Source: Planctomycetia bacterium
GTDB lineage: Bacteria > Planctomycetota > Planctomycetia > Gemmatales > Gemmataceae
Assembly (NCBI GenBank): GCA_005786805.1
Contig: SYCV01000066.1
Location: forward strand, 1 to 64,000
Direction of reading: 5' to 3'
DNA: 64,000 nucleotides
Shown here: positions 1-4,902 of the stretch, piece by piece
Position numbering within the stretch: position 1 is the stretch's first letter
Layout of the letters: each line of letters starts with the position of its first letter
Notes under the pieces: model-generated
Database searches by the model: none
Seen by the model: only the letters and a program-made list of their open reading frames with translations
What the model was told of the DNA's origin: nothing
Program-made: the position numbers and the translations under genes

Positions 1-141
1 CCAGCCCTTCTTGAAGCCCATCACAGTGATATCAACTTACTTCTGCTCACCGCTGATAGACCAGCACGTCTTCGAAAGACTGGCTCGAATCAGAGGGCAA
101 TACTTGCTACCATGATCGAGGAAATGCCTTTTTCAGGATAG
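1..141 (+). pseudogene. menD: menD 5' fragment (SEPHCHC synthase), truncated
   Basis: Reading frame 1 from the window edge gives PALLEAHHSDINLLLLTADRP followed by ARLRKTGSNQ. This matches the N-terminal region of MenD (E. coli has PALIEAG...LILLTADRPPEL..CGANQAIRQ). MenD is the thiamine-diphosphate enzyme of menaquinone synthesis that joins 2-oxoglutarate to isochorismate. The MenD-like sequence stops at the SNQ codons near base 93. The frame then runs antisense through a peptidase gene and hits TAG at 139-141. The piece is therefore a gene fragment without its 3' part; its 5' part lies outside the window. It was not in the ORF track. The identification rests on about 31 residues, but the TADRP signature is distinctive. 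Confidence 0.72.
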
Positions 142-752
142 ACTCCCGCGTGGGATGCCCGGCCAAAAATTTCGACTTCAAACCGTTCCGCGCCTACTGC
201 TCCGATCGTAATCCCCTCCGGGCCTCTTCCATCAACATTAAATCCCATGGCGGGATTTCCCAGATCTTGGGGCTTTACATACCGAGCCCCAAACAAACCA
301 CTTTCTTCACGAACAGTGAAAAGCAGCGTTATAGGAGGGTGGGGGATATTTTCTCTGATCAGTTTGGCGGCAAGGTACATCAGGCATGCCACACCAGTGC
401 GATTGTCGCCACCCAGTGCTGTCTTTCCCGACGCTGTGATTTTTTTGCCTTTTAATAAGGGAATAGCCCCGGCGCATAATGGCACGGTATCAAGGTGGGT
501 TGAGAATAATAATCGAGGCCCGCTGGAGGTTCCTGGCAGGGTTACGATAAGATTTCCGCATTCGGTGGGAAGTGGAATTTCCTTGTGTGCTGAGTCATGC
601 TTTATGAGATTTTTTGGAATACCGAGTTTGATAAGTGTGGAAGCCACATGTTTGGCAATTGCAGATTCCTTTCCTGTGATGCCATTGATTTTTAAGCAAT
701 CCATCAATAGATCCAAGGCCCATTTTTGGTTTAAAGAGGAAAGGTTAGCCAT
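90..752 (-). pseudogene. M20-family (PepT-like) metallopeptidase, 3'-truncated
   Basis: The 220-residue product carries the N-terminal catalytic half of an M20 zinc peptidase: HLDTV (residues 86-90), the bridging aspartate in GGDNRTG (114-120), the EE pair in FTVREESG (about 149-150), the metal-binding aspartate in FNVDGRGPEG (174), and the start of the dimerisation (lid) domain with RASHAG (199-203). M20 enzymes are normally about 370-420 residues. The remainder of the lid domain and the C-terminal metal-binding histidine are missing, and TGA follows immediately after VASIAL. All three minus frames stop within about 90 bases, so a single frameshift does not restore the gene. The break coincides with the end of the menD fragment on the other strand. 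The ATG at 752 is a normal start. The product is very probably non-functional as a peptidase. Confidence 0.8.
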
Positions 753-926
753 AATATCGGACTCCGTTGAAAGATTGTAAACTATTGCAAGCTATGGATT
801 TATACCCAGAAAAATTGCTGGTTTCAAGGAAATTGAAGGATCTTTTATTTGATTGGCTTTAAAAAGAGTAAAATAGATTTCCATGTAGGGCCGAATCAGG
901 CTCTTTTTCAATTTTGGGGTTTAAGG

Positions 927-2897
927 ATGAGCGATCCTGGTCATTCGCAGCATTCCAAAGGTCATCAGACTTTTTGGATGTGGGCGATGTGTCTCACAGG
1001 TGTGGATTACTTCAGTACTCTTGGTTACCAACCCTCCATAGCTTATGAAGCCGCCGGAAAACTTTCCCCCTTTGCCACCCTGGTTGTGGTGCTGGTGACA
1101 CTTTTTGGCGCTTTTCCCGTTTACTCCTATGTGGCCGGGAAATCGTTCCGGGGATTGGGATCGATCGGGATGTTGGAGAAACTACTCCACGGATGGGTTG
1201 GAAAAGCCTTGGTGATGACTCTTCTGGGATTTGCTGCAACTGATTTCGTCATCACAAAGACACTTTCAGCCGCTGATGCGGCGGAACATGTTATTTCAAA
1301 TTCATTCTGGCCGCTTGGTTTTGAATCAATGGGCCATGATAAGCAACGATTGTTGTTGACCATGGGACTTCTGATAATGTTGGGTGGAATGTTTTTACGG
1401 GGGTTTTCAGAAGTTATCGGCGTGGCGGTGCTGATTGTGGTTGTTTACATGTCGTTAAACCTTACCATCATCATCTCCTGCATGATTCATCTGTTTCAAC
1501 ACCCTGAATATTTCACACAATGGCTCATGGATGTTGAATTGGGTGGGGATCATTGGCATTTGGAGCATGCTCCGCAAATACCATTCTCCGGCATACCTGC
1601 GATTTTGGTGCTCTCACTTTTGTTGTTCCCAAAACTAGCGCTTGGTCTCAGCGGGTTTGAGACAGGCATTGCCATCATGGGTATCATCAAAGGTGATGAA
1701 ACTGATACGCCTGAAAATCCAGTTGGTCGTATTCGGAACACGAAAAAGTTGCTCCTCTCCGCCGGCTTGATCATGTCTTTTTTTCTCATTGGTTCCTCGA
1801 TTGTGGTGAGCACACTTATTCCCTCGGAAAATTTGATCGCGGCTTCCAACATGGTTGGCGCATCAGCCAAGGACAGGGCGTTGTCATTTCTCGCTCATGG
1901 TGAAAGCCCAAGGATAAATGTTTTCCCCTTTGGTTCGGTATTCGGGACCTTGTATGACATAAGCACAGTTTCAATACTTTGGTTTGCCGGTGCCAGTGCC
2001 ATGGCTGCCCTGATAAATCTTGTACCCCAATATCTGCCCCGATACGGCATGGCCCCCGAGTGGTCCCGTGCGATCCGTCCGATGGTGATTTTTTTCACCC
2101 TTGTGAACTTGCTGGTTACCTGGGTGTTTGATGCTGATGTAAGCGCCCAGGGTGGTGCTTATGCGACTGGTGTTTTAATGCTTATCTTAAGTGCCTGCAT
2201 CGCCTCAGTTATTGAGATTTATCGCTCCCGCAAAGGTATGTTTTTGTCACGGGTGCCGTGGTATTTTTCAATGGTCACCATTGCATTTGCCTACACAGCC
2301 TTTGCGGTTATCATTGAAAAACCTGAAGGATTGAAAATAGGAGCGTTTTTCATCGGTGCCATTTTTATCTCCTCTTTTGTTTCGCGGTTGCGTAGGTCTA
2401 CCGAACTACGATTCCTGGGTTTTGAATTTGTGGATGATCATTCCAGGTTCTTGTGGGAAACGCTTGAGCACCTTGAGTTTCCTGTACTGGTGCCTCATCG
2501 GCCCGGACGCAGGGAATTGCTTATCAAAGAGGCTATAATCCGCAAGGAGCATCGAATCAGTTCGGATGTTCCCATATTATTCCTTGAAGTCTCGAGGGGT
2601 GATACCAGTGAATTCTACCAGCAACCTTTGCTCGAGGTGGAGCAGTATGATGGTCGTTTTGTTTTGAAAGTTTCGCGTTGCTCATCAATCTCCCATGTGA
2701 TCGCCGCAATTGCCCTTGAACTAAGCAAATACGGAAGCCCGCCTGAAATTCATTTTGGCTGGTCGGATGAAAGCACCCTGTCTGCTAATTTGAGCTTTTT
2801 ATTATTTGGTGAGGGTAATGTTCCGTGGATGGTTAGGGAACTCATTTCAAAGGCCCAACCAAATGCTGAAAAACAACCAAGAATTATTATTGGTTAA
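927..2897 (+). CDS. APC-superfamily permease with cytosolic C-terminal domain
   Basis: An integral membrane protein of about 656 residues. The N-terminal part begins with FWMWAMCLTGVDYFSTLGYQ, resembling the first helix of amino-acid/polyamine/organocation (APC) permeases, and is followed by about a dozen hydrophobic segments up to residue 510. The last 150 residues are soluble and contain no membrane segment, suggesting a cytosolic regulatory domain. The family moves amino acids or related cations; the substrate cannot be told from the sequence. The ORF is open from 849, but conserved sequence starts at MSDPGHSQ, so the ATG at 927 (directly after TTAAGG) is preferred. It is divergent from the broken M20 gene. 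Confidence 0.7.
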   Translation: MSDPGHSQHSKGHQTFWMWAMCLTGVDYFSTLGYQPSIAYEAAGKLSPFATLVVVLVTLFGAFPVYSYVAGKSFRGLGSIGMLEKLLHGWVGKALVMTLLGFAATDFVITKTLSAADAAEHVISNSFWPLGFESMGHDKQRLLLTMGLLIMLGGMFLRGFSEVIGVAVLIVVVYMSLNLTIIISCMIHLFQHPEYFTQWLMDVELGGDHWHLEHAPQIPFSGIPAILVLSLLLFPKLALGLSGFETGIAIMGIIKGDETDTPENPVGRIRNTKKLLLSAGLIMSFFLIGSSIVVSTLIPSENLIAASNMVGASAKDRALSFLAHGESPRINVFPFGSVFGTLYDISTVSILWFAGASAMAALINLVPQYLPRYGMAPEWSRAIRPMVIFFTLVNLLVTWVFDADVSAQGGAYATGVLMLILSACIASVIEIYRSRKGMFLSRVPWYFSMVTIAFAYTAFAVIIEKPEGLKIGAFFIGAIFISSFVSRLRRSTELRFLGFEFVDDHSRFLWETLEHLEFPVLVPHRPGRRELLIKEAIIRKEHRISSDVPILFLEVSRGDTSEFYQQPLLEVEQYDGRFVLKVSRCSSISHVIAAIALELSKYGSPPEIHFGWSDESTLSANLSFLLFGEGNVPWMVRELISKAQPNAEKQPRIIIG

Positions 2898-2970
2898 CAA
2901 TTGCTCTTTGATGAACGCTAAAATAGTATTTAAACCGTCATGAGGATTAAATTCACGGGGTCAAACAGGT

Positions 2971-4902
2971 ATGAGAATTAAAAATATTTTTGGTCTGGTT
3001 CTGCCTTCACTTGTTATCTGGGGACTTGCTTTGTCTCCCTTGCCCGGAGCTGATAAAGATTCCTTGCCCTCCACTGAAAATGTGAAAAAGGATATTTTTT
3101 TCCTCGCATCTGATAAGTGTGAGGGGCGCGGTCCGTTGACCAAGGGATTGGATCTTGCTGCGGATTACATAAGCGGGCAATTCAAGGACGCAGGCCTCAA
3201 GCCTCTTGGCAAGGATGGTTCATATTTCCAGCCTTTTAAAATCGCGGGCGCAAAGTTGGATGAAAAACCAAATTTGGTGATAAAGGCTTCAAATTTGCAG
3301 GTGGATACACAACCTAAAAATCGAAGGTTCAAGTTTTCCCATAGGTTGGATACTTCAGGGAAACAGGAAAAAATATTCGCTTTGGAGGTGGGTAAGGATT
3401 TTGAGGCAATGGGATTGTCACAAGCCGGAAAAGCAAATGGAAACATTGTTTTTTGCGGATTTGGAATAACAGTGGATGACGGCAAGAAATACGATGATTA
3501 TTCAAACATAGATGCCAAGGGCAAAATTGTCATGGTTCTTCGGGATGCCCCCAAGTTCAAGGAAGAGTCCAAGATATTTGATTCAAATGGAAAAAAAAGA
3601 CAGTTGGCTTCGTTGACTGAAAAGATTTTGAATGCCGAAAAACACGGGGCCTTGGCGGTGCTTTTTGTAAATGACCGGGATACTGCCAAGGAGACTTCAG
3701 ATGCATTGTTGCCATTTAATTACACCGCGCTTGCGCGAAGTCCCGGTAAGATTCCCGCATTTCATCTCTCGAGGTCCATCGCCGGTGAATTGGTCAGCGT
3801 GGCCTTGGGCAAAAACCTTGATGATATCCAGAAAAATATCGAGGAATCGATGGTTTCCGCCAGTGCTTTATTGGATGCGATCTCGGTCGATTTGGAATTA
3901 AAGCTTACCCGTGGGAAAGATGTTGTACCCTTGAAAAATATCGCAGGGGTCTTGGATGGAAGTGGCCCGTTGGCTAATGAAACCATTGTGATTGGTGCCC
4001 ATTATGACCATTTGGGGTACGGTGGGGCGGGTAGTCTATCGAGCCAGAAAAAACTTTTGATCCATCATGGTGCGGATGATAACGGTTCCGGAACCACGGG
4101 GATGCTTGAACTGGTGCGAAGATTTTCAGCCATCAAAAATCGGCAGGGAAGAAAAATCTTGTTCATGGCCTTTAGTGGCGAGGAATTGGGGCTATTTGGC
4201 TCCGCCCACTTTGTGAACAATCCGTTGATTCCAATTTCTGAAATTTCCGCCATGGTGAATCTGGACATGATTGGGCGCTTGTCCAAGGATGCCGATACCA
4301 AGAAAGACAAGGTTCTTCTCGAAGGCACAGGTACTGCTGAAATATTTGAGCCACTTTTGGACAAGAAGAACAGTTCCGGGGATTTTGTTTTTGTAAAGAA
4401 AAAAAGTGGATTTGGGCCCAGTGACCATGCGTCGTTCTGTGAGAAAAAAATTCCAGTGCTTTTCTTCTGGACTGGTACACACCCGGAATACCATACCCCT
4501 TTGGATACAGCCGAAAGAATCAATCTTGATGGATTGTTGAAGATAGTGGGGTTCGTCGAAAAAATAGTCGTTGAATTATCCCAGGTTGAAAAAAGACCCG
4601 CTTTTGTCGAGGTCAAGGGTGGTGCTTCCCCAAGGCCTGCTGGAAATATGCCAAGGTTGGGAATTCGGCCCGGATACTCAGATGATAAGGAAGGCGTGCT
4701 TGTGGAAGGTGTTTCGGACGGTGATCCTGCCGCAAAAGCTGGGATCAAGAAGGGGGATAGGATCATTGAAATCAGTGGGAAAAAAGTCGGCAACATTGAA
4801 ACCTACATGCAAATCATGGCTGGAGAGAAAAAAGGAACAACCATCGATGTGGGAGTTGAAAGGGATGGTAAAAAAATCAAAGTGCCGGTGAAACTGGATT
4901 GA
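2971..4902 (+). CDS. secreted M28-family zinc aminopeptidase with C-terminal PDZ domain
   Basis: A 643-residue exported peptidase. Residues 1-26 form a signal peptide ending near LSPLPGA. An insert at about residues 120-280 fits a PA (protease-associated) domain. The M28 catalytic domain shows the expected ligands in order: GAHYDHLG (about 340), the bridging aspartate in HHGADDNGSG (about 365), catalytic EE in FSGEELGLFG (about 402), the aspartate in NLDMIGR (about 430) and the histidine in SDHASF (about 484). A PDZ domain fills about 566-643 (GVLVEGVSDGDPAAKAGIKKGDRI). This layout is known for M28 peptidases that trim peptides in the periplasm; the substrate is unknown. The gene is convergent with the next one, 9 bases apart. 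Confidence 0.9.
   Translation: MRIKNIFGLVLPSLVIWGLALSPLPGADKDSLPSTENVKKDIFFLASDKCEGRGPLTKGLDLAADYISGQFKDAGLKPLGKDGSYFQPFKIAGAKLDEKPNLVIKASNLQVDTQPKNRRFKFSHRLDTSGKQEKIFALEVGKDFEAMGLSQAGKANGNIVFCGFGITVDDGKKYDDYSNIDAKGKIVMVLRDAPKFKEESKIFDSNGKKRQLASLTEKILNAEKHGALAVLFVNDRDTAKETSDALLPFNYTALARSPGKIPAFHLSRSIAGELVSVALGKNLDDIQKNIEESMVSASALLDAISVDLELKLTRGKDVVPLKNIAGVLDGSGPLANETIVIGAHYDHLGYGGAGSLSSQKKLLIHHGADDNGSGTTGMLELVRRFSAIKNRQGRKILFMAFSGEELGLFGSAHFVNNPLIPISEISAMVNLDMIGRLSKDADTKKDKVLLEGTGTAEIFEPLLDKKNSSGDFVFVKKKSGFGPSDHASFCEKKIPVLFFWTGTHPEYHTPLDTAERINLDGLLKIVGFVEKIVVELSQVEKRPAFVEVKGGASPRPAGNMPRLGIRPGYSDDKEGVLVEGVSDGDPAAKAGIKKGDRIIEISGKKVGNIETYMQIMAGEKKGTTIDVGVERDGKKIKVPVKLD

Follow-up and report, generated by a model that had tools for sequence, protein, structure and literature searches.

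At the very start of a contig from a planctomycete draft genome, a fragment resembling MenD on the forward strand and a fragment of an M20 peptidase gene on the reverse strand abut tail to tail, raising the question of whether the chromosome was rearranged at this point or the contig misassembled. An earlier note had read both genes as broken at the same base with loss of their 3′ parts, either through a deletion or inversion that joined distant loci or through an assembly or binning chimera, and had concluded that, if real, the break would deprive the strain of menaquinone synthesis at this locus and of a peptidase. The window analyzed here consists of bases 1–64,000 of contig C30 (134,039 bases), and its base 1 is also base 1 of C30, which places the junction at a contig terminus. 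The draft genome comprises 259 contigs (3.92 Mb) and is 88.7% complete; its closest relatives by peptidase protein are mostly planctomycete metagenome-assembled genomes, at 85–86% identity. The evidence assembled below leads us to regard bases 1–93 as almost certainly a chimeric tail, appended to a planctomycete contig during metagenome assembly. The features on which the argument turns are as follows.

1–93, + strand: foreign stub with the MenD residues PALLEAHHSDINLLLLTADRPARLRKTGSNQ, almost certainly a chimeric tail on the contig end; matches TIGR00173, with other copies absent from the genome and from 58 relatives
1–141, + strand: terminal 141-mer of C30, of the same length as the exact end overlap (the probable k) at three other contig-end pairs
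94–170, − strand: overlap with the start of C162 read in reverse (C162:1–77), with identity at 76 of 77 bases and the mismatch at window base 141
94–752, − strand: 5′ part of an M20/PepT-like peptidase gene (codons 1–219 and two bases of codon 220), resuming at C162:78–621 to give a joined frame of 400 amino acids
927–2897, + strand: permease-like membrane protein, a conserved neighbor, oriented divergently to the peptidase in all congeners inspected
2971–4902, + strand: M28 peptidase carrying PA and PDZ domains (Pfam), a conserved neighbor in conserved order

A MenD stub in a genus with futalosine-route genes

The forward frame spanning bases 1–141 carries, in its residues 1–31 (bases 1–93), a match to positions 80–110 of the 435-position NCBIfam menD profile TIGR00173 (profile search, E = 3.6e-10), in keeping with the initial reading that MenD homology ends near base 93. 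Although these 31 residues match both an equivalog profile and, in a structure-database search, solved MenD structures, they are all that is there of a protein of ~550–600 residues, and there is therefore no menD gene. The N-terminal part of MenD is missing as well, because C30 itself starts at window base 1.

A DNA search with window bases 1–240 as the query returned nothing significant that would represent a second copy of bases 1–93 in the same genome. The rest of menD, which the earlier note had proposed to seek elsewhere in the assembly, did not turn up: a profile search of the contigs yielded no other menD, and its two further matches are acetolactate synthase-type enzymes by NCBIfam. 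At E ≤ 0.01, the stub had no match in any of 58 relatives. Neither a draw of 392 genomes from the phylum nor plasmid records identified a donor, the best match being 61% identical in each.

The wider complement of menaquinone genes bears directly on the supposed loss of the pathway. MqnE is present in this genome (C223:18946–19965), and mqnC lies above its cut-off in five of six congeners; MqnC above cut-off was not found in this incomplete genome, where its absence is probably a gap. No menB above cut-off was detected in any of the 13 genomes searched, and with no other menD and no stub match in the 58 relatives, a menD-based pathway was not encountered in the species or its relatives. The genus thus has genes of the futalosine route (MqnE/MqnC) and shows no menD to lose, and therefore nothing here points to a broken menaquinone pathway at this locus, the consequence that the earlier note had drawn for the case of a real break. 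In the table of a survey that includes five Planctomycetes, the entries for the phylum stand in just four pathway columns and in none of the others (PMC3914697); the body of that table, its headings apart, agrees on our own reading with a futalosine-only phylum.

A peptidase gene divided between two contigs

On the reverse strand, the open reading frame from 752 to 90, with its stop at 90–92, matches positions 6–204 of the 361-position PepT-like profile TIGR01883 (E = 2.6e-35), the part that corresponds to the amino-terminal half of PepT-like peptidases in the M20 family. Identity to the true continuation of the peptidase stops at base 94, which puts the junction at 93/94 and upholds the observation that M20 homology ends where MenD homology ends. 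While the two homologies do end together, as first described, the accompanying claim that both genes have lost their 3′ parts fails for the peptidase: its 3′ part was found, upon the suggested search of the assembly, intact on C162. The overlap between C162:1–77 and window bases 94–170 is recovered by the reciprocal DNA search, and a single open frame without a stop extends leftward from window base 752 to 94 and resumes at C162:78. The joined peptidase aligns uninterrupted with those of five congeners at 85–86% identity over ~396 residues, and uninterrupted homologues also occur in more than 20 further relatives. An uninterrupted homologue across the junction was what the earlier note had named as evidence against a break, and on the peptidase side the break is refuted accordingly. 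The joined 400-residue protein fits solved PepT-like structures (3gb0, 3rza) over most of its length. The C30 part covers positions 6–204 of the TIGR01883 profile and the C162 part positions 179–360, together a full-length match in one reading frame; scored singly, each half stays below the curated cut-off. As read from its frame, the peptidase gene is intact in the genome, divided between C30 and C162, rather than lost. A further M20 match, on C196, belongs to a separate gene; that contig overlaps contig C2.

Gene order leads to the same place. Wherever congener contigs are long enough for comparison, the order is M28 peptidase, permease-like protein, M20 peptidase, DUF3419 protein, and methyltransferase (e.g., L023, L026, and L027). 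C30 supplies the M28 peptidase, the permease-like protein, and the 5′ part of the M20 peptidase, and C162 supplies the remainder of the M20 peptidase followed by the DUF3419 and methyltransferase genes. The congener order is that of C30 plus C162, and therefore the real chromosomal junction is between C30 and C162 and not between C30 and menD; in the recommended comparison with relatives, gene order runs on from C30 into C162 just as it does in these congeners. The first genes of C30 to the right of base 94 share 82–90% identity with the genus in conserved order. Among them, the permease-like protein (656 amino acids) is 86–90% identical among congeners and has no significant match in Pfam, NCBIfam, or PDB. 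The continuation on C162, the uninterrupted homologues, and the gene order of the congeners all speak against the deletion or inversion that had been entertained.

Origin of the join

How such a tail could arise is suggested by the ends of other contigs in the assembly. In a sample of 122 termini tested for contig-end overlaps, three pairs (C7/C10, C31/C75, and C50/C60) share mismatch-free overlaps of exactly 141 bases, a pattern suggestive of de Bruijn assembly with k = 141. The ends of C2 and C196 also overlap, as do those of C46 and C72, and single-base differences are scattered through these overlaps in the way that co-existing strains would produce; a cluster of seeming overlaps involving C22 and C77 consisted of runs of N and was discarded. 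At least 300 bases are shared between C2:11709–12008 and C196:139–438 (L112, L021) with three mismatches, and another peptidase gene has apparently been divided or duplicated between these contigs through strain variation. C30 and C162 share a stretch of 77 bases, one of them mismatched, in place of an exact 141, and may represent slightly different strains. The stub, the adjoining peptidase bases, and the base-141 mismatch all fall inside the first 141 bases of C30; with the stub and the mismatch inside one 141-mer, a single chimeric read was possibly enough to produce the join.

On the account that we envisage, assembly would have used a de Bruijn graph with k = 141, which a strain polymorphism near base 141 may have broken. 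A read or graph path, originating in a single chimeric read or a spurious graph edge, would have joined ~93 bases of the menD of another community member to the peptidase at 93/94, while the true chromosome runs from window base 94 into C162. A contig-end chimera is recognized by a junction at the terminus, a continuation on an overlapping contig, and relatives that are uninterrupted and syntenic, and all three are observed here, alongside an intact frame and the lack of any counterpart to the menD stub elsewhere in the genome or in the 58 relatives. In one benchmark, the share of contigs that were chimeric ranged from 1% (coassembly) to 2.2% (multiassembly) (PMC7329831). Like these known artefacts of short-read metagenomes, C30 combines the DNA of two organisms in an arrangement unsupported by relatives; unlike them, its foreign part is only 93 bases, located at the very end and within one 141-mer.

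Among the explanations first put forward, the assembly chimera is borne out by the 77-base overlap, the uninterrupted homologues, and the gene order across the junction, and the others fare poorly. One alternative is that a single strain underwent a genuine rearrangement or horizontal insertion that truncated the peptidase and set foreign menD DNA beside it; this reading could appeal to the base-141 allele, which differs between C30 and C162 and may reflect the presence of two or more strains. It is nonetheless very improbable, given a stub unmatched in 58 relatives, a second half of the peptidase that lies intact within the bin and continues the reading frame, a foreign part confined to 93 bases wholly within the terminal 141-mer, and the futalosine-route genes of the genus. 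That a minority strain truly carries the menD–peptidase join, possibly within a classical menaquinone pathway that it acquired, is a fainter prospect still. A binning error only, with C30 a correct contig of another organism, would correspond to the binning chimera that the earlier note had listed, and it deserves next to no credence: for bases 94–4902 it is refuted by their match to the genus at 82–90% identity in conserved order, and the peptidase also overlaps another contig assigned to this bin. The fault is within contig C30, not in its bin assignment.

With a tail added by the assembler as the preferred reading, two false annotation calls are averted, namely, a pseudogenized peptidase and a broken menaquinone pathway, and the question of whether a join lies within the terminal k-mer provides a simple check before contig ends are read biologically. 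C30 and C162 can be set side by side, which brings the peptidase gene and the DUF3419/methyltransferase pair together again. On C162 the DUF3419 gene is followed by a UbiE-like methyltransferase gene (L020:763–2720), a pair that adjoins the peptidase in congeners and that we take to resemble the betaine-lipid synthesis genes btaA/btaB.
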